Below, one piece after another: positions 21,531 to 45,938 of a DNA stretch of 64,000 bases (positions are counted from its first letter, which is position 1; every line of letters begins with the position of its first letter). The position numbers were made by a program, and so were the translations under genes. Origin of the DNA: a virus. The notes under the pieces were generated by a model. The model saw only the letters and a list, made by a program, of their open reading frames with translations, was not told the DNA's origin and did no database searches. The stretch is from positions 62,001-126,000 of the IMG/VR virus record IMGVR_UViG_3300046171_000162; one strand, given 5' to 3'.

Positions 21531-21538
21531 TATAAATA
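21531..21538 (+). promoter_or_regulatory. Late promoter for the 3,693-aa virion gene
   Basis: TATAAATA, the exact T4 late consensus, 39 bases before the ATG and immediately after the tRNA terminator. Confidence 0.85.
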
Positions 21539-30500: not shown

Positions 30501-32659
30501 CTGGAACACTAGAAATCGCTGCTTTCGCTGGTTCATCTACTGCTCGTATCTTCACTCTAGCAGCAGAAGCTAACCTCTTTGATGGCGCAGCAACAACTTC
30601 TGTTAACATTGGTGCTAACGCAGCATCAGTTGATATCGCTGGTCTGGGTGGTTTCACTACTGTTAGAAACTCCCTGAAGGTACAAGGTAGCACCACTTCT
30701 GATGGTACTATCACACTTTCTGGTGGTTTGAATGCAGGTATTATTAAGATCAACAGAGCAAGATTCTCTACCTCTACTGGAGATCATCAGGTTGGATCTC
30801 TGGAAGATCCTAACATCACCTTCCTCAAGTATTATGAGACTGGTAAGAAGATCGATACTGGTGGTGTTGCACCATGGGGTAGCGATACATTCCTACTAGC
30901 AGGTGGTCAGATTGCTGCTGTTGATAGCATCAGTCCAACAAACAGCTCTGACTGGGTTGCAAACGTACTGTATGATAACCTCCAAGCAACCACTACTGGC
31001 AACGGTACTGGAGCACTGTTTAACGTTGAGATCGATGGTTCTGGTGATGTAACTATCAGTCTAGTCGCTCCTGGTTCTGGATATTCTGATAACGATCCTC
31101 TAACTATCACCTCCGATCAACTTGGTGGTGCTGCTGGTGGTCAGGATCTAACCTTCAGAGTTAACCAAGTCAATGCTTCTGGTGAACTCTACTACTTACC
31201 AATCACAGCACCTGCACCTGATGACTTTAAGATCGGTGATCTTCTTCTCATCGATAGAGGACATCCACAAGCAGTTGATTCTGTTGATTCAAATGGTGCT
31301 ACTGTTGCAGCAGATCAGCAATACTCGGAGATTGTCCAAGTTACTGCTCTGATCAACGTCACCGACCCAACTGATACTCTTGGTTATAGACTAGGTGTTA
31401 AGAGAGGTGTTGATGGTACTGCTACTAGAGCAGATCACCCCGATGAGAGCATCATCGCTAAACTTGATAAGTCTGCTAACGCATCTTACATCACTGGATT
31501 TGATCTAGACAACAATGGTGAACTAGACACAGGTAACACGAGTGCTGGTGTTTCTACTGCTGACATCAGAATTGGTGTTGCAGAATTCGGTGGAACTCTA
31601 ACCACCAACGATTATCTGATTCTAGATAACATTGAAATCGTTAAAGTCGCTGAACTTATCTCCACAGATATTCAGTCACTGCGTGTTACTGATGGTGGCA
31701 CTCCTGCAACCGAGGTATTCAGAGTAGATTCTACTACAGGTAATACCAAACTCAATGGAAGATTGAGTGTCGGACAGGGATTTGATAAGTTTGTTGTTGA
31801 GGGTACAAATGGTAATACAACTATTGCTGGCACTCTTACTGTTAACAATACTCTGAAGGTCAGAGGTGCTACTGTCGAGGGCGTTGAGTTCTTCAGACTA
31901 ACCAACGGCGGTTCTACCAGTATCACAGAAAGAACTACTCTGGAAGTTGATACTGCAACTGGTGATCTAACAATCAACGGTGGTGACATTAAGGTCTTCG
32001 GTGAAGATGGAACTACCGAGAAACTGACGTTTGAAAATTCTACTGGTGACCTCACAGTTACTGGTACATTATCTGCAGTTGGCGATGGAACCGCAACATT
32101 CGGCGGCGACATTACTGTTACGGGAGACATTACCATCAATGGTGGTGATCTAACGGTCAACTCTAGTGGTGATGAGATCTTCGCAGTTGATGAACGAGGC
32201 GGCATGACAATCGCTAGTATTGAGAACTACATCACCAGAACTGGTGGTCGTAAGTGGGAGTATACTGCAGAACAAACTGTTCAAACAGAACCAAATGTTA
32301 ACTATTTTGTCAACGCAAGTCAAAATACTGTTGTCAAACTACCACCACTAGGTGATTGTCTAATTGGCGATATGATTCGCATTATAGATATAGGTGGACT
32401 CCTTACATATAACATGAGTATGATCGTTAGAGCACCTTCTGACGTTAATGTTCAGGGTGGTACTGACAATACTGGAACTGCGCTAATGAGTGGTGTTTCT
32501 AATTCTGGAAATTTGGTTGGTGATGGATATGATGGTGGTGAACTGATTGTTCAGACTCCATATGCAGCATTTACGCTGATCTTTGCTGGATCTTCTACAC
32601 CAACTGGTCAAACAGCAGTTCCTGGTGGTAAGGTCGGTTGGTATATCGCAGAGGTTTGA
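21578..32659 (+). CDS. Giant virion structural protein (probable fibre or baseplate-fibre connector)
   Basis: 3,693 aa. The N-terminus (MPLTRLDNLYSSKTGKYLYV...DDFNATDELDNRG) is the hallmark of the largest cyanophage T4-like structural protein. It is followed by about three 43-aa repeats (VDRAAAE...HPDFF.PG, from 21893, 22020 and 22149), then four ~120-aa repeats each beginning CKRD (22357, 22718, 23089, 23474), with a fifth, interrupted copy from about 25670. The centre is beta-rich; the last third has trimeric-fibre-like repeats (GDLTVTGTLSAVGDGTATFGG type). No T4 counterpart is evident; location before the collar/adhesin genes suggests a tail-fibre shaft or connector. ATG preceded by a late promoter. 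Confidence 0.8.
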   Translation: MPLTRLDNLYSSKTGKYLYVSPDDFNATDELDNRGNSPLRPFKTIQRAFIEVARYSYLPGKDNDRFDQFSIMLMPGNHFIDNRPGLVDTANPESRYFDSGNLIEANKQLIVDRAAAEIFVQHPDFFHPGDNQTDDGSRYADAYRLVQLNRKEIVDKSAAHIAVEFPDFFYPGGNGTSEAEYRFKDGYRLIQQNKQEIVDRAAAEIAVAHPDFFFPGDPADDPVYRFKDAYRLIQQNRQEIIDTAWTTMQAGANAADPADEAKCKRDIGLLVDYIGIDLVKGGNEYTRKFTLKYFQGGVFSYIISEAAATVDAYNAARDLMIQAMKNQLTITDSTITIDPNACANVESAITTLTQIVTDAFNAADASGIPVETTGSDLTNEAKCKRDLGLFVDYLGLDLISGGNEYVRRHAGTYFVNGSPISNGLVGEEAQSITAFNKARDLMISAVQNILLVQDSTITVDGGGCANVQSAITTLTAILTTVINDGNLSQLPAETLGSFASANEIECKRDLGEYIDALSLDVALAGGNRYTRKYLKTYFNEAGTQFITGSLESEQSESIAAFNKARDLMISAFRNELFAKDSTITADPNGTPLCADVASMLGNLAAIVETVLTDGNLSQLPAETVTDHETAGEQKCKRDIGFIVDGVLADIRNGGNSNIISVAKTYFDRDGNPIADGIVGEEAESITAYNKARDMMKLAVTNSLYDKDLTISPGPAIAGANTPDIEYDESGNPGACIDVQTSIQTLVAILTDVINAGSLSVLASVQVTGVVPVFDYNRALQEWQDDSILDLGNPDNVLYKFNSTEGGCIVPRGCSLIGYDLRRTIVRPLYVPDPVDGDQERTGIFKLTGGCYLWQFTIKDGDLSENSPLYDQADKVGKVYYKKNSTDLKIPEYSHHKICIMTYAGNEELDRFYEKVGRAFAQFQPTIDDGELEALVQETRIVGPLSDTRTVESIEVVDIPGTSTARFTVTTKIEHGYFKGQYIAVINSGLSDEVNGTFKVDTIDDNNPKVFTYIIPITAAGLGLVSGITYTTANGLGTNAVIQAEIDSVESASPYVFNCSIRSTWGQCGMWADGSKATGFKSMVVAQYTGVSLQKDDRAFIRYDRFTNTWNQASLTDAFATVPYHAKGDAYWKDEWRNFHIRASDDSFIQCVSVFAVGFHDHFLMESGGDMSITNSNSNFGNTSLHSVGFKGFAFNQDKGGYIDAIIPPKVVNTAAEGTSTLQYYTLDIEASNDQANHNKLYLAGDTNQDPSSRPAASIGGYRLGAKQDDRLYVKLPGSGAGGKNTYHATLEPSGVKTYKSSLSSLTPPSLNINFDLDGDGNDDFNMAYDAANLIEKNRSYLAEETYGYITTLYPALLTNSSLTITKCERDMGFIIDAVVKDLRVGGNINTIYAAESYISGGNVSYVDGELTETLLAYDHLRRLSFGAIRNFNLLIKNCTTVNGSATVTVGDTSGLVPGMNVSHYSQTDFTNGKLDEGSTRLGTLLDSNSPVIIDQIVNATTITIKDVNTDQPFNAGGDSTTAWFYFENVNRYSSSQRVVDEDITQDTDYPECNNITTAIQNLYDVVNLILNGNGNQVTRVEPIIDSAQLIGRATVFTIDTGNGQTDPHGLQTGTPVRLVPRALNDQVDKRLVRLPRGFETNRTYYVIAPGRLTAPGVFNGTSEFDNTAGTKLMLAATKENASAGIYIYSSETEAVDPQVEILVQQYVLDDQYDLHRYVCNVSGIYIETDVPHIFDVPIPNVPAQQIFFATSGDASSQLPTIAGASTVPTNVYYYPRFETPNKFSVHTSQADAQAGTNAVIFTSGSGSDFVVYGNKKTSPLRYDPVSFNRWYINVKDESSGGLDPDAILTRFHAADFLDGTGNLFTPDTFFERIEDERTPLDRIYRLRYVIPKYLSTVREPLNGYVIKTRTDDRRRLKPQRFILEPFSNGAPTIAQFENPARPAEKLGQSLATLNAAGVDISGNFYDPYENPLQIEFESKIAVTIQSARVGSNFADEDRLELTVFDHTIINQQLKNEIFTIVEIGSPQGAGIQTSIYNSDDANYVSWTGNCSGSGFVHGYYQADLTAFIILKNITGKLDFDASNPTTFVQNNGTFFDLNGQKDAWPTQISRSERKNYLYRIEGANVYTVVPGDKVTTPGGDTYTISAVEDVPDIDDTFYIFDVETIQEQIPLQQEGVYYLTAVRGNISPYPLGAGVGTNFHYYKFSQPISNLYPLDYKNDPLWFQIDDSGNRDLTKLDPPASVAAADNYVHGLVTLNDYKYSETKEAVTDMLATRPFANFQFTNSTADVNAKVIDNRIRAQEGNASVGSENRQIPISGDSVYPLQSRYYTELRRPSIARSGNHTFEYLGFGPGNYSTGFPLRQEVVLSDKQDFYAQAKREDGGIVFYTGLNSNGDLYIGNRKINAITGEETFLEQAALEDSGDDSDSIGALVTTFDNAVTFNDKVTIEGETFLNNPVQINVDPLDGDSLRILSLTQSGDDPTQDRTAFRNRLDGDIVLTKNSINAAVYRFNPRGTVETPGQSYTWRTHVAGGFPSNITPNNTGLLAAGGTAWYTAQNVTYGSSITPTAGDILYKGLEVNRSGSLGWIYTNFFTEIPDASIFSLTSDNTTTIEIQWGAGVSNQQLNVKVGETLRISNFSNTFFNGSWKVLASAFDPLASTCKVQLFNQIAQNVYDWSAEGPGAKIEISLSRWKELGVIGAEALRTDTDTFGDFRLGINTIGRSAKEATNVANVSVDTDPRANLDVVGTAFISGKTLVTYDNTGLVDVNNYFAEASNAKTYFTVDNAFLVGGESDDPDAIATVRISTSDPASVTSTYQTGGRFGINTSIGGLAERELDRNFVVYGDARITGNTLIEDDLSIDGGDLNSTAETFQFLNTNVDFFIGLGAAESLSLGNTTQSDQSISVGMNVADTASHTLRIGGNAGSTTLEIHKRSKSAFVDIASVEDAITSNCSINIGGGAPNLATSTYIGTYQTKVAGTLEIAAFAGSSTARIFTLAAEANLFDGAATTSVNIGANAASVDIAGLGGFTTVRNSLKVQGSTTSDGTITLSGGLNAGIIKINRARFSTSTGDHQVGSLEDPNITFLKYYETGKKIDTGGVAPWGSDTFLLAGGQIAAVDSISPTNSSDWVANVLYDNLQATTTGNGTGALFNVEIDGSGDVTISLVAPGSGYSDNDPLTITSDQLGGAAGGQDLTFRVNQVNASGELYYLPITAPAPDDFKIGDLLLIDRGHPQAVDSVDSNGATVAADQQYSEIVQVTALINVTDPTDTLGYRLGVKRGVDGTATRADHPDESIIAKLDKSANASYITGFDLDNNGELDTGNTSAGVSTADIRIGVAEFGGTLTTNDYLILDNIEIVKVAELISTDIQSLRVTDGGTPATEVFRVDSTTGNTKLNGRLSVGQGFDKFVVEGTNGNTTIAGTLTVNNTLKVRGATVEGVEFFRLTNGGSTSITERTTLEVDTATGDLTINGGDIKVFGEDGTTEKLTFENSTGDLTVTGTLSAVGDGTATFGGDITVTGDITINGGDLTVNSSGDEIFAVDERGGMTIASIENYITRTGGRKWEYTAEQTVQTEPNVNYFVNASQNTVVKLPPLGDCLIGDMIRIIDIGGLLTYNMSMIVRAPSDVNVQGGTDNTGTALMSGVSNSGNLVGDGYDGGELIVQTPYAAFTLIFAGSSTPTGQTAVPGGKVGWYIAEV
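21893..22316 (+). repeat. Tandem 43-codon repeats in the giant protein
   Basis: Units begin near 21893, 22020 and 22149 with a partial fourth near 22278, spaced 127-129 bases. Each encodes a helix (N-K/R-x-E-I-V-D-x-A-A) and a HPDFF/FPDFF-x-PG turn. Confidence 0.75.
22357..23870 (+). repeat. Four ~120-codon CKRD repeats in the giant protein
   Basis: Copies start at about 22357, 22718, 23089 and 23474. Each has CKRD-x-G, an L/V-D-x-x-x-x-D core, GGN, a short insert, AxNKARDLM and a closing C-A-x-V...L...I/V segment. A degenerate fifth copy at about 25670-26290 has a long insertion in its middle. Confidence 0.75.
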
Positions 32660-32662
32660 TAC

Positions 32663-34093
32663 ATGTTTTATCAGGAAAGACATGAAGCAAAAGGTGCCGT
32701 TATCGGCACCATTATGGCGTGGACAGGGGGATTAAGTTCTATCCCCCATGGTTGGGTCATTTGTGATGGGGGAACATTACCTGCGGATGATTTCCCTCTG
32801 TTGGCTGCTACTATTGGTGACTCATATAACATGGGAACTAGTAGTAATTTCAACGGAACATTCCCATCATATACTGGACTGATTACTCTACCAGATCTAA
32901 ATGGTAGAATGCTGATGGATATTGAGAATGACTATTTTCCTCTTACTGGAAGAGCGGCGGATAGTGATACTGACGCTAGATCTATTATGAGCTCTATCGT
33001 TGGTAGTAAGAAACAGAATACTCAAGGAATGGCACTTACTGGTAGTTATACTGACATCACGACAGACATTATTTTCCAAATTAGTCCAAGCGACAGAACT
33101 GGTTATCAAGGAAAAATTACTGGTAATACTATTCTTGCTGGTGAAGGAACAAAGACAGTATATGTTGCTCCTAGAAAACTAGGTAGAAAGCATATTACTA
33201 GACATAATCATCCTGGAAACGTCTCGACTATTAGGAATGACGACCCGAGATATCCTGGTGATGGTGTTGTTCCTTACTTTCCAATATCATATACATTATA
33301 TGTGTCAGCGGTTGACATCGACAGTGGTGGTGATGTTGGTGATGTTGGTGATGGTGACCTTATATTCTTTGGTTGGACTGATAATAATATCCAAGGCAGA
33401 CATACTGGTGATCCTACAGAAAGAAGTGAAGTTGGAACTCCTGTAAACATTCGACCAGGTATCATTGGTGGTTTGTTTGGAAATTTCCAATCTGTAAACG
33501 ATGCACCAAATTATCCTGCACTACTTTCTTACAGATGGCCAGAGCAGGGAAATAATGGTGAGGAGAGTCCTGATGGAAGAAATGATGGTGTTCCTAATAA
33601 AGTTTTTGGTTTATCGTATTCAGAATCTCCTCCAATTAACCTTAAACCAAGAGAGTTGAGATATACGCCATTGACGCCAGCTTTCCTTGATACAGATAAA
33701 CACGAGGATGCATACTTTATTGGCGGACCAAATGAACAAAGTATTCCATATGGTGCTGGTGGAAATGAAGTTAATGTTCCAGTGGGAATCAGGAATTACT
33801 TTAATGATACTCAACCAGAAAATGACGTTAGCGGCAGAACTTTGTTGAGTCACCCAGCATATGACTTTCTAGCAGATGCACCTGGTACGGATAAAATTTA
33901 TCCTCATGATCATGGCACATTTGATATTGATTTTGATTCGACCAGATTAAAACCCCAGTCGAGTATTCTTGCTAATGTTAATTTGCCCCCTAGCACAAAT
34001 CCAGACAATACGCAGAATGAAGGAGCATTATCAATTGAATTCACTACTGCACAACCCAAACTCACCTGTATATACATCATCAGAGCATACTAA
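32663..34093 (+). CDS. Tail collar-domain fibre protein
   Basis: 476 aa, ATG three bases after the giant gene's stop. Residues about 15-95 form a phage tail collar domain: IGTIMAWTGG, IPHGWVICDGGTLPADDFPLLAATIG, ITLPDLNGRMLM. The C-terminus IYIIRAY is echoed in the proteins ending at 35874 and 44281. It is probably part of a short or long tail-fibre tip. The stop overlaps the next ATG by one base. Confidence 0.8.
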   Translation: MFYQERHEAKGAVIGTIMAWTGGLSSIPHGWVICDGGTLPADDFPLLAATIGDSYNMGTSSNFNGTFPSYTGLITLPDLNGRMLMDIENDYFPLTGRAADSDTDARSIMSSIVGSKKQNTQGMALTGSYTDITTDIIFQISPSDRTGYQGKITGNTILAGEGTKTVYVAPRKLGRKHITRHNHPGNVSTIRNDDPRYPGDGVVPYFPISYTLYVSAVDIDSGGDVGDVGDGDLIFFGWTDNNIQGRHTGDPTERSEVGTPVNIRPGIIGGLFGNFQSVNDAPNYPALLSYRWPEQGNNGEESPDGRNDGVPNKVFGLSYSESPPINLKPRELRYTPLTPAFLDTDKHEDAYFIGGPNEQSIPYGAGGNEVNVPVGIRNYFNDTQPENDVSGRTLLSHPAYDFLADAPGTDKIYPHDHGTFDIDFDSTRLKPQSSILANVNLPPSTNPDNTQNEGALSIEFTTAQPKLTCIYIIRAY

Positions 34094-35874
34094 TGGTAAG
34101 GTCTAAATCTACTAACTATACAAGAAATAAGTCTTTGTTTGGTGGTGTTCCTGGCACTATCCAAATTCATACGACCCCTGGTATCGGTATCAACAATGAT
34201 CCTAATACGGCAAAATTCAAGGATGATTTGCCTGGTGGATTCTTAAAGTGTGATGGGTCAGTACATAATGCAAAAGATTATTATTTGTTAGCACAGATTC
34301 TCGGTGTTGGTGAAGAGTGTAGATTCAAGAAAGAGAAAACTACTTTAAGAGACCCAAATCCAGAGATAGATGATCTTGGTAGTTTTCAGTTGCCCGATCT
34401 AGGATCTAAAGTTATTATTCCTAGTGGTGGTAGTGGAGATTATACTAATGTCTTCATGGAAAATAAACCCAGCACAACAAAGGTTGGTGTAGAGTGTCAG
34501 GCAGTCCTTGAAGGTCAGGAGAATAGAATCTTTGTCAATTATACTTCTGGTTCTTCTACCAACAATGGTATCGTTAGTTGGAGTGGATACAATGGATCTG
34601 TAGGTGGTGGTGGTGCTATTACAGGATTCTTAATGCGTCAAGTAACACAGGTGGATGGTTCTGGATTAACTGTAAATACATGGGCAGGTTCTGAATTTGG
34701 TGATTATGGTTATAGAAATGCTCCTGGGAACAATCCCAACTGGTGGAATAATCCCAATGAAAATATCACAGGAGACTTCAGAATCAGGAGAAACAACAGC
34801 GGTAATACAGATCGATTAACCGATGGTGTTGGTTGTGTCATGAATGTCACCATCGAACCAAACCAAAAACCAAATGGTGAATTCAATAGGTCGAAAGTTA
34901 GACTTAATGCATATGTCAATGGTCAGAGAGGATCTGGATATAAAGTAGATGACGAGTGTTCAGTTGTCGAGTGGGATGAACTGGCAGGAACAGGTAATAG
35001 AATTTTTAAAGTTACATCAGTTTCTGCACCTCTTGGAGCTGAAGGATTTCAAACAGGAACTACTGATCAGTGGTTCTATAATAATGCTGGTTCTGACTTT
35101 TGGGACGATACTGGAAGTCGGTATGATTATTGGGAAGATGATAATGATTATGTAGAAGAAAATTTCCAGATGCAAGGTGGGTCTGGCGCTGGTGCAGTAT
35201 TCAAGATTCGTATGCAAGGCGATGACGGTGGTAGAACAAAGTGGAAGATTCTTGCCATCATCAACCCTGGTGAAGGATATGTTACTGGTGATAAACTATC
35301 CTGGAACTTCAATACACCATGGCGCATTGAAAATGGACACAATGGAAATATCTCACTCGAAGATGATAATGGTGATGGCGTAGTCAGAGTAGATGGCACT
35401 AGTGCCGTTTCATTGCAAGCTGGTATGGAAGTGGAAGGATCATCTTCAGACATTAGCTTCAATGGAAACTTGAGATATAACATGATCAGAGAGACTGAAG
35501 GTTACATCTTGACCATTGATGAGTTTCAGGCACACTCTCACCGTGCTGATGTCAGTGTATTGAATTATACTGGAAACTATGACACTGATGGTCAGGGTAT
35601 GACAGGAAGTCAGCAGAATTCTTTTTCTGCCAACTCTGATGGATTTAATGGCATGGATGAAACAACCCTCAATATTCCTAATGGAGAACCAAACCACTTA
35701 CATAGACTTCAGAGACCAACGGCGTACAACCAAAACTTTGTTTATAACTATTCCCCATTTAATATTCCTACTGACAACATGCAATCATACATTGACGTTG
35801 ATATTGAAAGAGTTGATGTATTGAACCAGGTTGTTACTCCATTCATTATGGTTCATTACATCATCAAGTTCTAA
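34093..35874 (+). CDS. Collar-like tail fibre protein
   Basis: 593 aa. A collar-type segment is visible: DLPGGFLKCDGSVHNAKDYYLLAQILG...FQLPDLGSKVIIPSG (about 45-115). The middle contains KWKILAIINPGEGYVTGDKL, a GxGY beta repeat also found in the giant and gp5-like proteins. The His-rich EAHSHRAD-like and NHLHRL motifs near the end may bind metal, as His pairs do in T4 fibre tips. It ends VHYIIKF. Confidence 0.7.
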   Translation: MVRSKSTNYTRNKSLFGGVPGTIQIHTTPGIGINNDPNTAKFKDDLPGGFLKCDGSVHNAKDYYLLAQILGVGEECRFKKEKTTLRDPNPEIDDLGSFQLPDLGSKVIIPSGGSGDYTNVFMENKPSTTKVGVECQAVLEGQENRIFVNYTSGSSTNNGIVSWSGYNGSVGGGGAITGFLMRQVTQVDGSGLTVNTWAGSEFGDYGYRNAPGNNPNWWNNPNENITGDFRIRRNNSGNTDRLTDGVGCVMNVTIEPNQKPNGEFNRSKVRLNAYVNGQRGSGYKVDDECSVVEWDELAGTGNRIFKVTSVSAPLGAEGFQTGTTDQWFYNNAGSDFWDDTGSRYDYWEDDNDYVEENFQMQGGSGAGAVFKIRMQGDDGGRTKWKILAIINPGEGYVTGDKLSWNFNTPWRIENGHNGNISLEDDNGDGVVRVDGTSAVSLQAGMEVEGSSSDISFNGNLRYNMIRETEGYILTIDEFQAHSHRADVSVLNYTGNYDTDGQGMTGSQQNSFSANSDGFNGMDETTLNIPNGEPNHLHRLQRPTAYNQNFVYNYSPFNIPTDNMQSYIDVDIERVDVLNQVVTPFIMVHYIIKF

Positions 35875-35888
35875 TCGGGAAGTAGAAA

Positions 35889-37409
35889 ATGGGATGGACG
35901 TGCCGACTTTACACATCATCTACCAATCATTATGTCAGCAGTGATGTAAAATATATCTGCTACATGGCAGTTGGTGGGGGCGGTGGTGGCGCTCGCCCTA
36001 GTGCAGGTTACGGTAGACCAGCACAAGGTGGTGGATATAGTTGTGCTCCTGGCACGATAGGATATGGTGGAAACCCAGGAAATCTAAATTCTGGTGGATC
36101 TGGTGGTTATGGAAATTATTCTTATGGTCAGACTGGTTACGTCAACTATTCTAATGGTGAATATGCTCGTGCTAACTCTGGATATGGACCATATGGATAT
36201 GGTGGTGCTGGTCAGTGGAGATCACCTAGCTTCACTGGTGGTGGTGGCGGAGGCGGCGCTAGTCGCTGTTGTCGTCCGCGTGGCAACAGTGGCGCTGTAC
36301 CTGGTAACTCATACTATGTACGTGTTGGCAACGGTGGTCAACAGGGTGGTAATGGTTACAGAAGATTTGGTAGACATGGTGCTGTATATGTTTGGCAGCA
36401 GAATTATGAACAACCTTCATTAAGTATATCACTCTCTCCTACTGCTATCATTGAAGGACAAACTGCAACTGTTTCGTGGTCTGCTGGTGGAGATGTAGAA
36501 GGGGTTCGTAGTGCTGCACTGGGACAAAACCTTGCCACATCAGGATCTTCAGTGGTGGGTCCTAGCAGTAACACTAGGTACACAATTACTGCATATAATG
36601 CTGTGTATACAAGAGAACGTTTTATTGATCTTACTGTATATCGAATACCAACTGCTACATTAACAGCGACACCTTCGACCATTGTTGTGGGTCAATCTGC
36701 ATCTCTAGATTGGACTTCTTCAGATGCTAGTAATGCTGCTATTAACCAGGGTATTGGTGCTGTAAATTTAACTGGATCAAGAACTGTCTCTCCTACTACA
36801 GATATAACATATACAATTTCAGTTACTGGTGCTGGTGGTAGTGGTAGTGACACCGCTACTATCACTGTGTTGACAATACCTACGTTAAACATAGTAGTTC
36901 CATCCAGTGTAAATTATGGGGATGATATAACAATCGAGGTTAGTGGTACAAACACAGATCCTTCTGGAACTGGTGTTACTCTCGTGACAGTACAGACTGA
37001 TGAATATGAGGGACCTGGTTCTACAATGTCTCCCATTGCTATACCAAACACTACAGGAAATTCTTATAGTGCCATGTATACTATTCCTGGAACTAGTCTT
37101 CCTTATGATACCGTAGGACCAACAGCGTTGGAACTACAATTTACTGCTGATGGGTATGGATCTCTAATTGTGCAGGAAACCAAGAATGTCGATATTGTTA
37201 TTGATATGACTCCTGATGCTATTGACATTCCATCATCAGAGGATAAGTTCCTTGGTGAAGAACCTGTTATTACTCCTGATGTACAGGTCACATCTGAAAA
37301 TATTGTAATCAATGATATAGATATACCAGTGGAAATTAAATCAAACGAACCTATTCAGGTCGAAATTGATAATAGTGATAACTGGATGAACGTAAGACAG
37401 ATAACGTAA
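35889..37409 (+). CDS. Glycine-rich, Ig-like putative adhesin (1 of 3)
   Basis: 506 aa. Residues about 25-165 are extremely Gly-rich with Tyr and Ser, like the polyglycine tips of adhesins in some T4-like phages. Then come two or three Ig-like beta domains (SISLSPTAIIEGQTATVSWSAGG, ATLTATPSTIVVGQSASLDWTS) and a ~65-residue C-terminal module (IPSSEDKFLGEEPVITPD...IQVEID) shared with the next two genes. A host-recognition role is inferred from composition and context. Confidence 0.65.
   Translation: MGWTCRLYTSSTNHYVSSDVKYICYMAVGGGGGGARPSAGYGRPAQGGGYSCAPGTIGYGGNPGNLNSGGSGGYGNYSYGQTGYVNYSNGEYARANSGYGPYGYGGAGQWRSPSFTGGGGGGGASRCCRPRGNSGAVPGNSYYVRVGNGGQQGGNGYRRFGRHGAVYVWQQNYEQPSLSISLSPTAIIEGQTATVSWSAGGDVEGVRSAALGQNLATSGSSVVGPSSNTRYTITAYNAVYTRERFIDLTVYRIPTATLTATPSTIVVGQSASLDWTSSDASNAAINQGIGAVNLTGSRTVSPTTDITYTISVTGAGGSGSDTATITVLTIPTLNIVVPSSVNYGDDITIEVSGTNTDPSGTGVTLVTVQTDEYEGPGSTMSPIAIPNTTGNSYSAMYTIPGTSLPYDTVGPTALELQFTADGYGSLIVQETKNVDIVIDMTPDAIDIPSSEDKFLGEEPVITPDVQVTSENIVINDIDIPVEIKSNEPIQVEIDNSDNWMNVRQIT
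37215..37404 (+). repeat. Shared C-terminal adhesin cassette, copy 1
   Basis: Encodes the DAIDIPSSEDKF...IQVEID module. Bases about 37215-37270 are identical to about 40795-40850 in the third adhesin gene. Confidence 0.75.
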
Positions 37410-39553
37410 TGCCAACATTCTCTAATAATTCCTGGGGTACGTTTAGTTACACAGTCCCTGCAGGAGCAACAAATGTCAATTTTAGTTTCGCAGGCGCAGG
37501 TGGTGGCGGATCTAAACCTGTTGGTGGTGAGTGGTACATTGAAAATGGTGCTTCAGGTAGAGCAGGTAACTTTACTATCAACTCAAGATCTTATGCATAC
37601 ACTCTAACTTTTTATCTTGGAAGAAGAGGATTTGACGGATTCAATAACCGAGGTTCTGGATATGGATCAGGTGGTACTGGTGGTACTTCTCCTATAGCAC
37701 CAGGTGGTGACGGTCACCGTTCTGGTGGAGGTGGTGGCGGTGCCAGTGCTGTTTATGATAGTGGTGTTAATAGATATGTTGCATGGTGTGCTGGCGGTGG
37801 TGGTGCTGGTAGATTTCACCCCGATACTGGTTATTCTAGTCAAGGACTTTATTCTGGCGGTGCTGGTATTGGCGGTGGTGCAACTAGTAATCAAGGTGGA
37901 GGACCATCCTGGAGAACAGGCGGCAACGCACCGTTTGGTCACCGTGGAGGTGGCGGCGGTGGATCAACACTTGGTGTATTTGGTGGATCTGCTGGTTCTG
38001 CTACTTACAGTGGATTTAGTGGTATTGGTGGCAACTCTGGTTGGTGGGATCAGGGAGACATTGGATGGATTGTTAACAGTGGATATGCAAACATAGGTAA
38101 TGGATGGATGGTATTGTCATATACTCTCCCCCCACCACAAATCACATACTTCCACTTCAAACAAAATGGAGCAAACTCAACTACTGTTAATTTAATTGAG
38201 GGTGAGAATGTTGACATCGAGTGGGCAGTCGATGGCAGTAGAAACATGAGTGGTATCACTCTTACTGATTTTGGTTATATTGCTCCGTCTACAACATCTA
38301 ATTCGTTTACAGTAACTCCTCAATCTGACCAGCAGGGTGGCAACATAGGAACGAAAACATACACTTTAGAAGTTACTGGTAGTGGTGGAGTTGTATCTTC
38401 GTCTATTACTGCAACGATATACGAAATACCAAGTGTAAATTTTACTAGTAATGCACCAGCAAATACTATTACTAGAGGTCAGTCTGTACAATTAAGTTGG
38501 ACAACAGATGGATATGCATCAACAGCACAGTTATCTCCTAACCTTGGAGCACAGAATTTAAGTGGAAATATAACTCTAGTACCTACAGAAACAACATTAT
38601 ATACTTTTTCTGTTGGTGGTCTTGCTGGAACTGCTTCAGCTGAACTACTTATCACTGTTAATCAACCACCCACTGTAGATTTGATTGGACCATTTACTAC
38701 AGACTATGGTAATGACATTGTTCTGCAGTATGATTACTCGAATGCTGTTAACACATCAACAGAGACAACTAATGTTGATAATTCTGGTCCAAATATAACT
38801 ACAACACCTTTGAGTAATGTATCTGTCTCTATTACGAGGTACATTCAACCTGGTTTGAGTGGCACGGAGGGTCATCCTCTTGAATCTTTGAAATATATTG
38901 TTGACATTAGTGGTGGTAGCAACCCAACTATGACTGTGGGTATTTCAGACACCCAGATGAGAGCAAGTGGACTCATAGATCCTAATGGATCAATTGCATT
39001 GACTTCTGGTTATCCGAAGTTAGTATCAGCAAATCAATATGAAGTTGCTTTTGACATGATTAGTAGTGTAAATTCTTCTCAAAGACAAGCGACATTCGTT
39101 AGAAGTTTCTTCTTGACTATCACTGCTGACGGCGGATCTCCTGATGGTGGTGCTTTAGAGATGCAGAAGGATGGTAATGGATATGTTCAAATTGCTACGC
39201 TTGGTGGGGGAAACGTTGGTGGCACATACACTGTAACTGCTGATCAATTGTATGATGATTTTGGGGCACGTCAGGTAGATTTTAGATTGACTGTTTATGG
39301 TATGGGTTCACTACAGGGAACTGACAGTGCTACAACAACAATTAATATCGATGAATTGCCAGATCAATTGTCTATCCCATCATCTGAAGATAAATTCCTT
39401 GATGAAGAACCTGTTATTACACCTGATGTAACACTTACTAGTGAACAACTGTACATTGATGACATAGATATACCAGTAGAAATCAAATCTGATACACCCA
39501 TTCAGGTTGAGATCGATGATGATGGAACATGGAGAAATATTAGGAGTATCTAA
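37409..39553 (+). CDS. Glycine-rich, Ig-like putative adhesin (2 of 3)
   Basis: 714 aa, start overlapping the previous stop. The N-terminal FSNNSWGTFSYTVPAGATNVNFSFAGAGGGG opens a Gly-rich domain to about 240, followed by Ig-like domains (LIEGENVDIEWAVDG, ITRGQSVQLSWTTDG) and the shared C-terminal module, here more divergent (KFLDEEPVITPDVTLTSEQ). Probably an alternative or partner adhesin for the one upstream. Confidence 0.65.
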   Translation: MPTFSNNSWGTFSYTVPAGATNVNFSFAGAGGGGSKPVGGEWYIENGASGRAGNFTINSRSYAYTLTFYLGRRGFDGFNNRGSGYGSGGTGGTSPIAPGGDGHRSGGGGGGASAVYDSGVNRYVAWCAGGGGAGRFHPDTGYSSQGLYSGGAGIGGGATSNQGGGPSWRTGGNAPFGHRGGGGGGSTLGVFGGSAGSATYSGFSGIGGNSGWWDQGDIGWIVNSGYANIGNGWMVLSYTLPPPQITYFHFKQNGANSTTVNLIEGENVDIEWAVDGSRNMSGITLTDFGYIAPSTTSNSFTVTPQSDQQGGNIGTKTYTLEVTGSGGVVSSSITATIYEIPSVNFTSNAPANTITRGQSVQLSWTTDGYASTAQLSPNLGAQNLSGNITLVPTETTLYTFSVGGLAGTASAELLITVNQPPTVDLIGPFTTDYGNDIVLQYDYSNAVNTSTETTNVDNSGPNITTTPLSNVSVSITRYIQPGLSGTEGHPLESLKYIVDISGGSNPTMTVGISDTQMRASGLIDPNGSIALTSGYPKLVSANQYEVAFDMISSVNSSQRQATFVRSFFLTITADGGSPDGGALEMQKDGNGYVQIATLGGGNVGGTYTVTADQLYDDFGARQVDFRLTVYGMGSLQGTDSATTTINIDELPDQLSIPSSEDKFLDEEPVITPDVTLTSEQLYIDDIDIPVEIKSDTPIQVEIDDDGTWRNIRSI

Positions 39554-40986
39554 TGCCAAGCATCAACATTTCCTGGCAAAGAAGTGCTGGAGATTCAAAC
39601 TATATTTACGGCATGCCAGGGGGAACTATTGGACCCAATAGTGGTAGTAGATCTGTTAATGTTGGGTTCGGTCAGACATATAACTTAAGTAGCAGCGGTA
39701 GTGGTCCTGGAAATACAGCCTTGAGAAGATTGAATAGTCAAACTTTGGGTTTAGATGATAGACAAGGTGCTGGTGCTGACAATGACTACAATGACATGAT
39801 TGTATATGTCAGTGGTGGTGGTACTTTCACTGGCAACAGTACATTTTCTGGACCACCTGCAACTTATGGTTGTATGGATTCCAATGCTGTGAATTATAAC
39901 AGCAGTGCTAATGTAAACTCTGGGTGCATATATGCTAATCCAAACCCACAGTTAACTGTTAATGGTTCAACTGCTACTCAAACTATTGTTGAAGGTGATG
40001 CTATAACTGTTAGTTGGTCTGCTAATGATTCACAGTACATGTATACTGGATCTATTTCTGGTCAAGGCGCACCAGGATCATTATCATCTTCTCAATATGG
40101 AGGTGGTTCTTTCGTTGCTAACCCTACATCAAACACAACATATACTTACAGTGTAAGTTATGCACCACCAACAAGAAATGATTCGTTTAGTATACCTGTT
40201 AATGTAAAAGAGATACCAGAGATTATCGCATCATTCCCTAATGGTAGTACAATTTTGCGTGGCAATAGTACAAATCTTGTGTGGTCTACTTCTGGTGATG
40301 CTACAACCATGTCTATTTCACCAGGTCTTGGATTGCAGAATTTGAGTGGGACACTTTCACTATCACCCACAGAAACAACAACATATACTCTATATGCATC
40401 ATCACCAGGATATGGTGGTAGATTACAAGATTCTGTGTCACTACTTCTTACTGTTATTCAACCACCATCAGCATCTCTTACTATCCCATCTACGATTGAT
40501 TGGGGTGACTCTAGTTTTCAAGCAATACTTGAATTTGATGAGGTCACCTCATATGATTTGACAGTTGAATATACAGACCTAGATGGTGTCATGATCACTC
40601 ATCCTGCATTTACTGGTGCAGATCCATCACAAACTACAGTTAATTTATTGATTGGTGATGAAACATCTGGTACAATACCTAGATGGAACAACAGGGGATA
40701 TAGTCAGGGTAAGGTAAAAATGAAAGCATATGGTCTTGGTGGTCAATTTGTGGAGAAAGAATCGATATTTAATATCAACATTGACCAAATGCCAGATGCT
40801 ATTGACATTCCATCATCAGAGGATAAGTTCCTTGGTGAAGAACCTGTTATCACACCTGACGTGACAGTTACTAGTGAACAAATAGTTATTGATGATGTTG
40901 ATATTCCAGTAGAAGTTAAAGCTTCTTCACCTATTCAGGTTGAGATTGACGACGGTGGTGTATGGTACAACGTTCGACAAACTTGA
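39553..40986 (+). CDS. Ig-like putative adhesin (3 of 3)
   Basis: 477 aa. The N-terminal ~100 residues differ from the two upstream genes and end in DNDYNDMIVYVSGGG, a calcium-binding-like pattern; then YGCMDSNAVNYNSSANVNSGC, a short motif resembling the one in the gp5-like protein, two Ig-like domains and the shared C-terminal module. The module's DNA is identical to the first adhesin gene over a 56-base stretch. Confidence 0.65.
   Translation: MPSINISWQRSAGDSNYIYGMPGGTIGPNSGSRSVNVGFGQTYNLSSSGSGPGNTALRRLNSQTLGLDDRQGAGADNDYNDMIVYVSGGGTFTGNSTFSGPPATYGCMDSNAVNYNSSANVNSGCIYANPNPQLTVNGSTATQTIVEGDAITVSWSANDSQYMYTGSISGQGAPGSLSSSQYGGGSFVANPTSNTTYTYSVSYAPPTRNDSFSIPVNVKEIPEIIASFPNGSTILRGNSTNLVWSTSGDATTMSISPGLGLQNLSGTLSLSPTETTTYTLYASSPGYGGRLQDSVSLLLTVIQPPSASLTIPSTIDWGDSSFQAILEFDEVTSYDLTVEYTDLDGVMITHPAFTGADPSQTTVNLLIGDETSGTIPRWNNRGYSQGKVKMKAYGLGGQFVEKESIFNINIDQMPDAIDIPSSEDKFLGEEPVITPDVTVTSEQIVIDDVDIPVEVKASSPIQVEIDDGGVWYNVRQT
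40795..40983 (+). repeat. Shared C-terminal adhesin cassette, copy 3
   Basis: Same module as at 37215; the second gene carries a diverged copy at about 39358-39550. Long exact identity between copies 1 and 3 but not 2 suggests recent exchange. Confidence 0.75.
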
Positions 40987-40992
40987 TAAATA
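40985..40992 (+). promoter_or_regulatory. Late promoter for the 1,085-aa fibre gene
   Basis: GATAAATA starting in the stop codon of the third adhesin gene, 31 bases before the ATG at 41024. Confidence 0.65.
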
Positions 40993-41023
40993 CTACAGAA
41001 ATAGTGACGGTCGTAGGCACTAA

Positions 41024-44000
41024 ATGAGCTTTTCATTCGGATCAAACCCAGTATATGTAGATGAAGGACAAACGATCCGATTAAGGTTCAAAGCTCCTTC
41101 AGCATGGAATACAACGCAGACGGTTACGGTTCAGATCGGTGATCAAACCACACTCTGGTATATTGTCACGATACCAGAAGATTTTGCGCCAGATCCATTT
41201 GCATTTAGTGACCTTGAAGAGGTAGATAAGAATACTTTATTCACCTGGGCAGATGGTACTAGAGCAGGTGAAGCATCGATTGTCATCACTGGTCTAACCA
41301 CAAATACAGAAGCTTCTGTTAATATCTACTCCAGTTTTTACAGTTCTAGTGTTGATGATTTTGCAGTAAGAGTCCAGCGAGTAAGTCAGGGCGAGACTGT
41401 TTATGGTGCTTGGACTATCCCTACACTATCAAATGCGATAGTTGTAAGTAATACTGACAAACTACAAGTTAGATTAAGATCTAGTCAGTCAGAAGGATCG
41501 CAAACATATCTGTCTCTTGCTGTTGGTGCGAGAACAGAAAGATGGAATATCACTACGTTTGTTAGACCACCTAACGTACCAGAACCATTCCCTAATTTCA
41601 CTGATATTATTAATCAACCATTTGATACTAGGGTATACAGTGAGATCTTGAGGGTAACTGGACTGAATGCTCCTGCTCTTGTGGTCACTAGTGGTAATGC
41701 TTTAGCTGGTGTTTCTGATAACAATGATTTTATTACGGATGATAATAATTTTGATGTCCTGGCAGAAAATGGATCAGCAGTTACATTCAACAATGCGACT
41801 ACGACAACTGTAACCATTACTAATGGACAGTATCTACAACTAGCATATAATACTGGTACAAATGCTAACGTCAGTGTTGAAAATCTTCTCTCAATTGGTG
41901 AGGGTATTAATCTATCCAGTTGGAATGTCACCACTGGTAACTTCCCATCAACAACACCAGGAGCGTTTAGTTTCCCTGATGTAGCTAATCAACCAGTTGA
42001 TACACAAATTGAATCTGCGATTGCACCTGTTAATGGTATTACTGGTCTTGGTGCTGGTACAACAGTACAAGCAACACTTGTTTCTACTAATCCTGGTAGC
42101 AACTATTTGACATCTCGTGTTAGAGTACATAGAGCAGATGGTAGTGTTACTTCAAAGGCTACCTTCCCTGTTGATGTACAGAATGGTGACAAATTACAGA
42201 TTTATACCCAATCATCCCCAAATAATAATGCTACTACAGGCATGATTATTAAGGTGGGAACTAGAACTATTTCTAGTTGGGATATCACTACAGAACTGGG
42301 TGCAGATACAGATGCAAACTATACAACACCATCGAATCTGACTGGTCAACCTACAGGTAAGTCTGTTGCTAGTGCTACTGTTATTGTCACTGGCATCAAC
42401 AGACCTATTCAGATTGATGCTTCTGGTTATGGTAAGATCTCTATTGACTTCGCTGCACCAGTCGAGGGACCAGTGACATTTGATCCAGATGTAAATACAG
42501 GATTCAGAGTATTTTTAGTCACTGGAACAACTCTCAACAATGTAATAACTACTAATGTTACTGTTGGTACTGGTAGCGGTAACACATTTGCGTGGTCTGC
42601 AACCACCTGGGCATCAGAACCAGCAGCACCAGAATTGAGAGGCACCTGGTATGCCAAGAAAAACGCAAAAGTTTATTACGATGCTTCCAATTCTGCCAAT
42701 GTTGTGGTAGAATCAAAGGACGATGGAATGGCAATCGGAACAGTTCTTACTATTCTGAAACAATCCCTCGGTCCTGGTAGAAATACCTCTCCTGCAGCAT
42801 GGGTAAGTGATACATATGGTGATCTTTCGGGTGGTCGTGACTCTCGTTATCCTGGGTATTTGGCTTGCGATGGTGAATCATATAACGTCGCAGACTATCT
42901 CGATCTCTTTCTCGTAATTGGTAATCAATATGGGGGTACTGGTAATTGGGATGAAACCACAAATACAGCGACTGGTAACTTCAAAGTTCCTGATTATAGG
43001 AACAGAAAACTAGCAGGAACTGGTAGAGTTGATGGTAACGCAGGTTCATCTGCGTTCTTGCCATCACCTAGTACATTTGAACCAGGAAATATTGGTGGAT
43101 GGTGGTACATTGACAATGTTGATGTTACTACTGGAGACCCAACTGGTACTGGTCAACAAAGCACACCATTCCAGCAATGGATTGGTAGTGGTGATACATC
43201 TGATGAAAGTATATTCTTTGATATTGGCACTGTTAAAACTGTCTTCAATGAACCAATTCAAGAAGACGTTGACTTCACTGTAACTGGTAACGTTAATGCT
43301 ATCATTGGTCCTCTATTGGATGCTAGAGTAAATACGCCTGCACACTCACACTTTGTTGTTTCTGCACAAACAGGTCCTTCTCAAGATCCATTAATTCCTT
43401 GGAACGCTCGTATCTTGGGATGGCAAATTCGCATCGATGATGATGAGATGTTAGGTCTGGGACAAGGTGCTTGGATTGATGCTGATTTAGGTGACGAATA
43501 CTGGCAAGATAGAGGTGATCCAGCGGACTTTGCTCAAAGGTGGAAAGGGAAGATTGACGATTATGCTGGTGGTGAATTCTCGGCAACAATGTCAAGATTC
43601 TTCCGAGGCAATACTGGGGAAACATTTGAAGAATTCCTAGAAAGAATTGCACCTAGTCTCCCTGATGCTGCCAACAACACTTTTAGTGGATCCGCTGCAT
43701 GGGCAAAAGACTGGAGTATGTCTGTATGGTGGCCTCACCATGTAGAAAATGGTGTTAGGGATAGATTGCAACTAGTTGGTAGCTCCGAGTGGACGGGTTC
43801 TACTTATCCGTTCAATAACTTGGTTAACCAAGCGCCCGCGTCAGCTCCTGCTGCAGCAGTGGGAGCAGGGCCAGGTCAATCAGTTGCTGGTGGTGTTCTC
43901 GCTGGTGCTGTTATTGATGTTGATGAATCACAAGCCAGAGTTGAATCTTACACCCCTCAAATTATGTTAGAAGATCTTGATGCTTCTGTAGAGACTCACA

Positions 44001-44281
44001 GTCACTTCTTGACAACACAAGCTGTTACTGATATCAATACTGATTTCTCTTATGGTAACGTTTCTGGTGTTGGTAGTGCTAGAAGAGGACTGGGCAATGC
44101 TGGTACTACTATCAACATTGGATTCACACAATCAGATGTAGATGTAGCACTAAATAGTGGTACGTTCACTTTGAATGAATCGTTTAAGAAACCTATTCCA
44201 AACGTCACATTCAAACCGAACAAAAAAGTTCCACTAGTCGAAAACTTCCACAAAGTTAAGTATATTATCAAAGCATATTAA
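41024..44281 (+). CDS. Large tail fibre protein with collar domain
   Basis: 1085 aa. The first half consists of four or so ~110-residue beta repeats (each with a TVQIG/LxVGxRTxxWxITT segment followed by PxPFxFxD). The second half has a tail collar domain (GYLACDGESYNVADYLDLFLVIGNQYGG...FKVPDYRNRKLAG, about 605-665), His pairs (PAHSHF, VETHSHF) and a C-terminus VKYIIKAY like the collar protein at 32663. It is most likely the receptor-facing fibre. Confidence 0.75.
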   Translation: MSFSFGSNPVYVDEGQTIRLRFKAPSAWNTTQTVTVQIGDQTTLWYIVTIPEDFAPDPFAFSDLEEVDKNTLFTWADGTRAGEASIVITGLTTNTEASVNIYSSFYSSSVDDFAVRVQRVSQGETVYGAWTIPTLSNAIVVSNTDKLQVRLRSSQSEGSQTYLSLAVGARTERWNITTFVRPPNVPEPFPNFTDIINQPFDTRVYSEILRVTGLNAPALVVTSGNALAGVSDNNDFITDDNNFDVLAENGSAVTFNNATTTTVTITNGQYLQLAYNTGTNANVSVENLLSIGEGINLSSWNVTTGNFPSTTPGAFSFPDVANQPVDTQIESAIAPVNGITGLGAGTTVQATLVSTNPGSNYLTSRVRVHRADGSVTSKATFPVDVQNGDKLQIYTQSSPNNNATTGMIIKVGTRTISSWDITTELGADTDANYTTPSNLTGQPTGKSVASATVIVTGINRPIQIDASGYGKISIDFAAPVEGPVTFDPDVNTGFRVFLVTGTTLNNVITTNVTVGTGSGNTFAWSATTWASEPAAPELRGTWYAKKNAKVYYDASNSANVVVESKDDGMAIGTVLTILKQSLGPGRNTSPAAWVSDTYGDLSGGRDSRYPGYLACDGESYNVADYLDLFLVIGNQYGGTGNWDETTNTATGNFKVPDYRNRKLAGTGRVDGNAGSSAFLPSPSTFEPGNIGGWWYIDNVDVTTGDPTGTGQQSTPFQQWIGSGDTSDESIFFDIGTVKTVFNEPIQEDVDFTVTGNVNAIIGPLLDARVNTPAHSHFVVSAQTGPSQDPLIPWNARILGWQIRIDDDEMLGLGQGAWIDADLGDEYWQDRGDPADFAQRWKGKIDDYAGGEFSATMSRFFRGNTGETFEEFLERIAPSLPDAANNTFSGSAAWAKDWSMSVWWPHHVENGVRDRLQLVGSSEWTGSTYPFNNLVNQAPASAPAAAVGAGPGQSVAGGVLAGAVIDVDESQARVESYTPQIMLEDLDASVETHSHFLTTQAVTDINTDFSYGNVSGVGSARRGLGNAGTTINIGFTQSDVDVALNSGTFTLNESFKKPIPNVTFKPNKKVPLVENFHKVKYIIKAY

Positions 44282-44283
44282 TT

Positions 44284-44955
44284 ATGGGATTAGCACCGTA
44301 TCGTCCTCTTGAGTTGATGAGGAATAAGGCAGCGACGAGATCTGACTTTCAAGATTTCATTGGTGTCTGGGAAGGATTTGTACCCAAACCTTTCTGTGAA
44401 GAAATGATTAAGTATGGAAATGATGTTCTGGATGAAAATAGTGCTGCATTAGCAGTAGGTACTCCACAAAGTTTGTATGGCGTTTCCGATGGTGGATCGC
44501 AGTACAAAGGCAAGGGCAACAGACATGATGCATCATTTATGGTGAACTATCATGCTTCTGATAGATCAGCACAGATCAATCAATTCCTGAAGTCATGTAT
44601 GATGCATTACATGGATGAGTTTGACCAGTTGAAAGGAATGACAATGGTATCTACTGATATCAAATTTCAAAGAACACCATCTGGTGGTGGTTATCACCTG
44701 TGGCATTATGAAAATGCATCACACGAATACTCTCAACGTGAAGTTACGTGGATGATCTACTTGAATGATATTGAAGAGGGTGGAGAGACCGAGTTCAGAT
44801 TCCAGAAAAGAAGAATTAGACCAACCCAAGGAACAGTTGTATTATTCCCAGCATGCATGACTCATGTCCATAAGGGCAACATGGTTATGGGCGAAGACAA
44901 TAAATACATTGTAACTGGATGGTATATTAAAACCCCATCGCCACTCACCCATTAA
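44284..44955 (+). CDS. 2OG-Fe(II) oxygenase (prolyl 4-hydroxylase type)
   Basis: 223 aa, two bases after the fibre gene. Metal ligands H141-x-E143 (YHLWHYEN) and a distal His in THVHKG (194/196); EVTWMIYLNDIEEGGETEF and KYIVTGWY complete the core. Very similar in motif wording to the enzyme at 20674. The tight link to the fibre gene makes a fibre protein a possible substrate, but this is inference. Confidence 0.87.
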   Translation: MGLAPYRPLELMRNKAATRSDFQDFIGVWEGFVPKPFCEEMIKYGNDVLDENSAALAVGTPQSLYGVSDGGSQYKGKGNRHDASFMVNYHASDRSAQINQFLKSCMMHYMDEFDQLKGMTMVSTDIKFQRTPSGGGYHLWHYENASHEYSQREVTWMIYLNDIEEGGETEFRFQKRRIRPTQGTVVLFPACMTHVHKGNMVMGEDNKYIVTGWYIKTPSPLTH

Positions 44956-44960
44956 TACCC

Positions 44961-45938
44961 ATGGCAGAAGAAAAATTCGTAAGAAGAGCAATCTACGAAA
45001 TGGATTTCATCTCCAACTTCGTTGTAGAGACTGGTATTAATGTTACCAACAAACTTACGGGACAAGTGGGTGCTCCCTCTTACAAACTCAAACCAGATCT
45101 GGTAGAGAGATTCAAGACGGAAGTTCTTGGTGAGAAGTGGCATACTGAAACTGACACTATCGAGTACGTCGTCCTCTATAATGATGGTACAGCAAATGTA
45201 CAGAGAAGAAAGCAGAAGTATAACTTCACCACAAAAGAGAGTTACTTCCAATCTTATGTGTTTAAAGCATTCACAGTAGATGATGTTGTCGAGCTAAAGA
45301 ATAATCTTGAGGCATTCCTAGAGGCACAAAGAATTGTTAATCAATTCCAGATTAATGATAAGATTACTTCCATCTCTCAAGAGCATGCTTTCTGGGATTC
45401 TACTCTATCAAAGAGAATCGCTGAAAAGCAAAACATGCTAAATGCAACTGATTGGCGTGTATTGCCTGATGTCACTGACAACTATCCTGGAGAGAAAGAC
45501 AACTGGATCAAATGGAGAGCAAACGTTAGAAACTCTGGTAAAGAATACTTTTCTTGGGATTCTATTCAAGCAATGGGTATGGAAAACTTTGACATTGAGT
45601 GGTTTAAGGGTATTGATGAAATCAAGTGGCCAATGGATCCAAAGATGTTCGCCACGCAGTTTCCAGATAGAGTCAACGATGATAAGAGTTTGACTGGATA
45701 TCTAGACACAGATGATTGCTTTGTGAAGAGAGACACTGATGCATCAACAGACTTGATCTTGAGTAGAATCACTAATATCAGTGAACTATCTGCTAAATGG
45801 AATAAGTCACGACGTGTTGTTGCTGATCTGACCAAAGAAATCATGCAGATGATGAGATGTGAGGAGTTTGTTGAAAACGGTATCGATTACACTACATTAT
45901 ACACACAGGAAGAGATAGATGCTTTGGGAGAAGAGTGA
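44961..45938 (+). CDS. Tail-fibre-assembly-like protein
   Basis: 325 aa. Most of it is not recognised, but the central LNATDWRVLPDV...YPGEKDNWIKWRANVRN (about 160-195) follows the TDW-x-LPD...W-x-x-YRQxLR pattern of tail fibre assembly chaperones. Position directly after the fibre genes agrees. Overlaps the next gene by 20 bases. Confidence 0.55.
   Translation: MAEEKFVRRAIYEMDFISNFVVETGINVTNKLTGQVGAPSYKLKPDLVERFKTEVLGEKWHTETDTIEYVVLYNDGTANVQRRKQKYNFTTKESYFQSYVFKAFTVDDVVELKNNLEAFLEAQRIVNQFQINDKITSISQEHAFWDSTLSKRIAEKQNMLNATDWRVLPDVTDNYPGEKDNWIKWRANVRNSGKEYFSWDSIQAMGMENFDIEWFKGIDEIKWPMDPKMFATQFPDRVNDDKSLTGYLDTDDCFVKRDTDASTDLILSRITNISELSAKWNKSRRVVADLTKEIMQMMRCEEFVENGIDYTTLYTQEEIDALGEE

Follow-up and report, generated by a model that had tools for sequence, protein, structure and literature searches.

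The stretch examined here is a window of 64,000 nucleotides (positions 62,001 to 126,000 of the IMG/VR virus record IMGVR_UViG_3300046171_000162, which is 197,476 bases long), and its subject is an array of three neighbouring adhesin-like genes, designated A, B and C, that end in a common C-terminal module (Table 1). The window comes from a near-identical relative of Synechococcus phage S-CAM1. Across positions 30000–46000 it is 99.9–100% identical to seven S-CAM1 records, and all seven show the same 16-kb arrangement. Upstream of the array lie, in this order, the genes for a giant tail protein, a short tail fibre-like protein and a tail collar protein, and downstream lies a collar-domain fibre gene, designated BIG. 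All three adhesin genes are intact open reading frames (ORFs) that overlap their neighbours by one base, so that they are probably made together. The profile of PHROG 2155 covers nearly the full length of each protein, and a location in the virion is suggested by the database annotation “virion structural protein”.

Table 1. The adhesin-like array and its surroundings, in window coordinates
Feature	Position	Strand	Remarks
Adhesin gene A	35889..37409	+	506 residues; glycine-rich head, three immunoglobulin (Ig)-like domains, C-terminal module; PHROG 2155, E 9.6e-172; AlphaFold2 model
Head of A	35889..36413	+	Residues 1–175; fold as in cyanophage Pam3 fibre 7ypx, at the end that recognises the receptor
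Module of A	37209..37406	+	Residues 441–506; predicted local distance difference test (pLDDT) <50 for residues 444–506
56-bp tract in A	37215..37270	+	Identical to 40795–40850; probable donor of gene conversion
Adhesin gene B	37409..39553	+	714 residues; long glycine-rich head, Ig-like stalk, C-terminal module; PHROG 2155, E 1.9e-206
Module of B	39353..39550	+	Residues 649–714
Adhesin gene C	39553..40986	+	477 residues; DUF4114-like head, three Ig-like domains, C-terminal module; PHROG 2155, E 1.8e-162; AlphaFold2 model
Module of C	40786..40983	+	Residues 412–477; pLDDT low, about 40–50, over these residues
56-bp tract in C	40795..40850	+	Identical to the tract of A; probable recipient of conversion
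Collar-domain fibre BIG	41024..44281	+	1085 residues; PHROG 4924, E 0; Pfam Collar at residues 610–661; proposed adhesin carrier
N-terminal repeat arm of BIG	41024..42643	+	Residues 1–540; proposed docking partner of the module
Tail collar protein	34093..35874	+	593 residues; PHROG 4714; left flank of the array, also in relatives (synteny)
Short tail fibre-like protein	32663..34093	+	476 residues; PHROG 4591; conserved neighbour (synteny)
Tail assembly chaperone family gene	44961..45938	+	PHROG 4697; conserved in the locus; 51 phage records
ATAAATA, cyanophage late promoter-like	40986..40992	+	Before BIG; nearest upstream copy at 21532

The first-pass annotation of this DNA proposed that all three genes end in the same module, and this is borne out. 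The module is 66 residues long, with identities, over about 65 residues, of 69.2% (A/B), 78.5% (A/C) and 69.7% (B/C). Outside it, identity is low: 28–35% between the heads and 34–37% between the middle parts, which are Ig-like stalks. The accompanying statement that the N-terminal domains differ is correct for the heads as judged by identity, but A and B both have glycine-rich heads, and Ig-like stalks are common to all three proteins, so that what they share goes beyond the module.

The 56-base identity between A and C was also correctly placed. No exact direct repeat found in the window is longer, and only two others reach 20 bp, both of exactly that length. When the module alignment is shuffled in codon blocks, an A/C run of at least 56 is obtained in 0 of 20,000 trials, while the longest A/B run (18; 1,756 of 20,000 shuffles) and B/C run (15; 11,281 of 20,000) are unremarkable. 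Of 300 confirmed IMG/VR matches, the best 80 were used, giving 66 loci. The relative L032 is 92.7% identical to the window over 11 kb; its gene A has the same tract, and its gene C differs there at several sites. Outside gene C of the window, the changes that A and C have in common are confined to gene A of the window and gene A of L032. The simplest reading of this pattern is that C was copied from A in the window's lineage after the split from L032, the direction probably being A to C.

The proposal of gene conversion between module copies is supported beyond this single tract, since module copies of one genome are more alike, and have longer identical runs, than copies from different genomes. 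In the S-CAM1 clade, neither the same-genome identity nor the run length is matched by any of 5,000 label shuffles; the corresponding counts are 3 and 0 of 5,000 in a second clade and 0 and 1 of 5,000 in a third. Pairs in these same-genome tests, and in the head-class comparison below, are not independent, so the shuffles are the guide rather than Mann-Whitney p values. Long exact A/B runs are found in other relatives, of 62 and 63 bp in L035 and L038 and of 82 and 58 bp in L059 and L083. With 15 near-identical loci left out, but near-duplicate loci still counted, exact tracts of at least 24 bp between genes of one locus number 74 for module-module and 48 for stalk-stalk pairs; the module-stalk class contains overlap artefacts. 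Conversion is thus concentrated in the module but not limited to it. The two adhesin genes of S-CAM4 (L010:9393-10171 and 11143-11921) have 779 bp in common at 83.5%, module included, far longer than the tract of the window.

Among relatives, the module follows the genome and the head does not. An array of two to six genes lies between the collar gene and BIG in 16 of 16 named phage records that were laid out. A profile of the module gives 273 matches in stop-ended ORFs across all loci, and 258 of these end no more than eight residues from the stop; the exceptions include short partial matches and the array gene v2 of ACG-2014j and of ACG-2014e, where the module is internal. In these two genes (L012:10261-15846 and L015:7332-12701) two adhesin units are fused: the internal module is retained, and a head of a different class, with its own module, comes after it. 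Classification covered 214 proteins, 200 of them with heads, after omission of the 15 near-identical loci and of N-truncated proteins; single linkage among the 200 gives six head classes, the glycine-rich class being the biggest (116). Within one genome, modules joined to different head classes average 67.5% identity (32 pairs), against 46.7% for modules from different genera with the same head class (257 pairs). This comparison used 40 proteins of 14 named genomes, leaving out pairs from different genomes of one genus. When genome labels are shuffled within head classes, the maximum in 2,000 trials is 56.8%, and none comes near 67.5%. Short and long module types are never mixed in one locus (0 of 59 loci holding two or more modules, the 15 near-identical loci again omitted). 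In KX349293 (L022:8690-10150), v2 is annotated from 8927, while the open frame and near-identical relatives begin about 237 bases earlier, probably reflecting an error of start-site assignment.

Exchange of heads can be seen directly where the flanks of two arrays are closely similar. Comparison of the 49 loci with both flanks (11 others were left out) gives 45 pairs in which both flanks are at least 83% identical. In nine of the 45 the arrays align over less than 90%, and these represent three independent comparisons. The first is among S-RIM44 isolates, with flanks 97.6–98.7% identical, where a block that begins with v1 and runs into v2 has been replaced. Its right edge lies inside the v2 module, identity returning to 96–100% about 180 bp before the stop. 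The v2 head of one S-RIM44 type matches a head of ACG-2014j, a phage of another genus, from the start codon onwards for about 470 bp, most 30-bp steps being 80–97% identical, with adjoining sequence on either side only about 30–60% alike; by this comparison, one head has passed between genera. The second is among ACG-2014j isolates, where the flanks are 93–94% identical, v2 has 1861 residues in one and 582 in the other, and the right edge coincides with the stop codon. The third concerns two metagenomic loci, L083 and L059, with flanks 97–99.6% identical and three and five array genes, respectively. Here v3 of L083 is a chimera, being 86–100% identical to v3 of L059 until about base 1040 and then 83–97% identical to v5, and the crossover falls where v3 and v5 are 70–95% alike. 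Deletion by recombination would be the simpler direction for this gain or loss of genes, because more distant relatives have six. These genomes show that heads are exchanged in nature. The suggestion that sister phages would differ in their heads with the module fixed is upheld by S-RIM44 and by L083/L059, and fails for ACG-2014j, where the module changed with the head. In the isolate pairs (S-RIM44 types and ACG-2014j types), the array is the main difference within an otherwise near-identical stretch.

A plausible docking place for the module, judged by gene content and profiles, is the N-terminal repeat arm of BIG. Full-length BIG (at least 79% coverage) is found in 49 phage records and relatives of A and C in 49, with the same accessions, many of them GenBank/RefSeq duplicates. 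Collar and BIG-like genes occur without the array in four phages (S-RSM4, S-MbCM7, S-H9-1 and S-WAM2); their BIG-like proteins match the collar-containing part with 98.0–99.6% probability but the N-terminal arm with at most 1.1%. The arm is present in 13 of 13 module genomes profiled and in Sf-FR1. The latter has kept arm and array, and carries a free 58-residue ORF (L093:10402-10578) that matches the module profile and lies next to the collar-domain fibre gene. In Sf-CH1b (L092:5691-12137), BIG lacks the arm (0.1%) and both adhesins lack the module, ending instead in arm repeats (99.6% and 99.3% probability); eight other proteins used as controls give at most 2.5%. Fusion in one genome of what most others encode apart is a classic hint of contact. 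The profile-profile comparisons of the arm, like those of its presence, used 13 genomes. Over 12 genomes, distances between modules correlate with those of all neighbours (r 0.86–0.90); with the others removed, the partial r is 0.48 for the arm (p 0.0025), 0.26 for the collar (p 0.028), 0.23 for the C-terminal part of BIG (p 0.044) and −0.29 for the short fibre.

Profile-profile comparison of module and arm gives no significant homology, the best probability being 27.9% and the next 9.2%. A shuffle test on single sequences nevertheless favours homology for five of six sequences on full score. The module profile finds the arm repeats above all 500 shuffles in four of four fibre arms, other than that of S-RIM44, that were shuffled on full score and in both Sf-CH1b adhesins, and does not do so in S-RIM44. 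Most matches of the module profile in the fibres lie near residues 430–470. A further possibility, offered tentatively and on balance doubtful, is that BIG acts as a rack, its arm of beta-sandwich repeats holding several adhesins at once by their C-terminal tags, and that the tag is a cut-down relative of the same repeat and takes up its fold only when it completes one of the arm's repeats. If so, phages would gain and lose heads like tools on a rail, with a polarity opposite to that of most known receptor-binding fibres.

AlphaFold2 models of C (39 alignment rows) and A (31 rows) are confident for the head and the Ig-like domains, with pLDDT of about 36–51 in the module. Both consist of a head, three Ig-like domains and then the module, whose want of a confident fold on its own would fit a tag that folds on its partner. 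The head of A (model residues 1–174) superposes on residues 76–278 of 7ypx_A with Z 9.6 and rmsd (root mean square deviation) 3.1 over 131 residues, at 26% identity, and so has the tumour necrosis factor (TNF)-like and glycine-rich recognition fold of Pam3 gp24, A being the one head compared. The head of C matches DUF4114 at E 7e-5, under Pfam's cut-off, and B matches Gly_rich_2 at E 0.06, likewise below it. Sequence searches for solved relatives of the adhesins or their heads yielded nothing useful, and Foldseek lists were dominated by Ig-like domains from unrelated proteins. Positive selection on the heads was considered for the window's clade and rejected, the ratio of nonsynonymous to synonymous substitution (dN/dS) being 0.11–0.56 in the heads and stalks compared and 0.11–0.39 in the heads.

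ATAAATA, described as a cyanophage late promoter motif in a review (PMC2984593), precedes the giant gene and BIG and is absent in between, which suggests that A, B and C are transcribed along with the upstream fibre genes. The window has no more copies of the motif than shuffled sequence does, and scans for promoters and terminators gave no greater yield than shuffles did. Two 2OG-Fe(II) oxygenase genes (44284-44955 and 45919-46599) lie on either side of the chaperone gene, as in most relatives.

The explanation favoured here, and considered moderately probable, is that the array encodes co-expressed, three-part tail adhesins whose tag is uniform within a genome and docked on a fibre arm, and whose heads are exchanged over evolution. 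Each adhesin would consist of an N-terminal head that touches the host, an Ig-like stalk and the 66-residue C-terminal tag. Gene conversion and selection would keep the tag uniform within a genome, because all adhesins of one phage must fit one docking place, most likely the N-terminal arm of BIG. Homology in stalk and tag would allow heads to be swapped by recombination, both from phage to phage and among the genes of an array. The set of heads, and perhaps with it the host range, would thereby change over evolutionary time while assembly is preserved. Data on S-PM2d bear on this. Over 500 days of coevolution, according to the main text of the study, mutations arose in a protein of 3779 residues and in the short tail fibres S-PM2d219, 220 and 224 (PMC9910659). 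By gene order these probably correspond to the giant gene, the pair of genes preceding the array, and BIG, with 221–223 as the array. As far as that text goes, the data favour the block as an adsorption unit, and are silent or mildly negative on the heads.

Several observations weigh against this explanation. The S-PM2d proteins 221–223 are not among the mutations given in the main text of that study (PMC9910659). In the window's own clade, seven relatives with 73–93% identity (L032, L033, L035, L036, L038, L037 and L040) keep both gene order and heads, and differ only by conversions and indels. L033, L035, L036 and L038 have an insertion of about 430 bp in the head of C (window 39767), probably an added domain, while L037 and L040 are without window 38749–39237 in the stalk of B, probably one Ig-like domain. 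The outcome that would have told against head swapping, with all three genes intact and diverging as units, is therefore found in the closest relatives of the window, although not in other sister arrays. Because the window's clade shows no swap, exchange is an evolutionary and occasional process, and there is no sign of head swapping within one phage population. Conversion tracts occur in stalks as well as in modules. In ACG-2014j the modules of the two types are only 66–80% alike, so that the module was replaced along with its gene, and the two fused double adhesins keep an internal module, which means that a free C-terminus is not required. For the arm, the four array-less phages may reflect one event or the ancestral state, and so give support rather than proof, and the fusion of arm and adhesin is known in a single genome, Sf-CH1b. 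The low pLDDT of the module may merely reflect a shallow alignment.

The adhesins might instead be decorations of the capsid like Hoc of phage T4, with Ig-like domains pointing outward, the tag holding the protein on the capsid and the heads loosely binding cells or surfaces. PHROG files the adhesin family under head and packaging, Hoc-type proteins are among the weak structural matches, and three Ig-like domains followed by a C-terminal anchor is the polarity of Hoc. Such a role is unlikely, given that the adhesin genes sit inside a conserved block of tail fibre genes and share their 49 phage records with full-length BIG, and that the arm fusion of Sf-CH1b points to the fibre. A function of the module in assembly, in which it is read by the adjoining tail assembly chaperone or trimerises the stalk and is not a docking site, is also improbable. 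The C-terminus often carries assembly domains in fibres, and the chaperone family gene is found in 49 of 49 module records and in Sf-CH1b and Sf-FR1. However, chaperone relatives are also annotated in the array-less S-MbCM7, S-H9-1 and S-WAM2, and in Sf-CH1b the place of the module is taken by arm repeats and not by a chaperone domain. Ordinary, recent tandem duplication in each lineage, with tags alike through youth and no need for head exchange, would account for a tandem array with shared stalks and for such pairs as that of S-CAM4, but has very little in its favour once it is seen that head classes are shared by genera whose modules differ, that orthologues keep their order across the S-CAM1 clade and that the breakpoints of exchange are directly visible.

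A programmed switch that joins different heads to one tag within a single phage population, as in invertible tail fibre cassettes, could use the 56-bp direct repeat of A and C for recombination, but that would delete B, and the idea was rejected as scarcely credible, since A, B and C are intact, overlapping and probably co-expressed, the seven S-CAM1 records are alike and there are no long inverted repeats (the longest pair in 33000–44000 is 30 nt at 77%; recombinase genes were not searched for).

The tail adhesin explanation bears on a gap in these viruses. In a review, marine cyanomyoviruses are stated to have no recognisable genes for T4 long tail fibres, and unassigned structural proteins are supposed to replace them (PMC2984593). 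The array is a concrete candidate for the missing fibres, with several heads per phage, one tag, natural exchange and a likely carrier adjoining. Named genes, breakpoints, a docking pair and isolate pairs make the host-range determinants of abundant ocean viruses directly testable, and the swapping, merging and loss of heads on a common tag may be how viruses of ocean cyanobacteria change what they stick to. Among the titles and abstract openings of the cyanophage and tail fibre literature, which included few subscription papers, no description of the array, the tag or the head exchange was found.

A, B and C belong to known families of virion structural proteins of marine cyanomyoviruses (PHROG 2155, 9770 and 29022; T4-GC 737–739, 1047 and 1048), whose annotation is structural only and includes neither the three-part build, conversion of the tag and exchange of heads, nor the likely partner. 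The closest likeness for the head of A is gp24 of the freshwater cyanophage Pam3. That protein attaches to the baseplate through a helical domain at its N-terminus and carries the recognition end at its C-terminus, and S16 gp38 is said to resemble it (PMC9608196). The polarity is reversed in the adhesins of the window, which have an N-terminal head and a conserved C-terminal anchor; the model of A begins with the head and has no N-terminal helix. The gp38 adhesins of T-even phages are glycine-rich, modular determinants of host range. Their conserved attachment is N-terminal, on the tip of gp37, and they are known as a single adhesin and not as an array, whereas every aligned protein of the window's family has its conserved end at the C-terminus and several adhesins form an array. 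T4 Hoc has Ig-like domains before a C-terminal anchor on the capsid, and in the models of A and C three Ig-like domains likewise precede the module, but Hoc is not known to have an array of variable heads, and neighbourhood and co-occurrence point to the tail for the array. The invertible cassettes of Mu and P1 join different receptor-binding parts to a common base, while the array has no inverted repeats and all its heads are intact and probably made simultaneously. Overall, the array is real and recurrent: its three-part adhesins have in common a C-terminal tag that undergoes conversion, their heads have been exchanged, and the proposed docking partner is open to test. It is a form of the modular phage receptor-binding protein theme in which the polarity is reversed.

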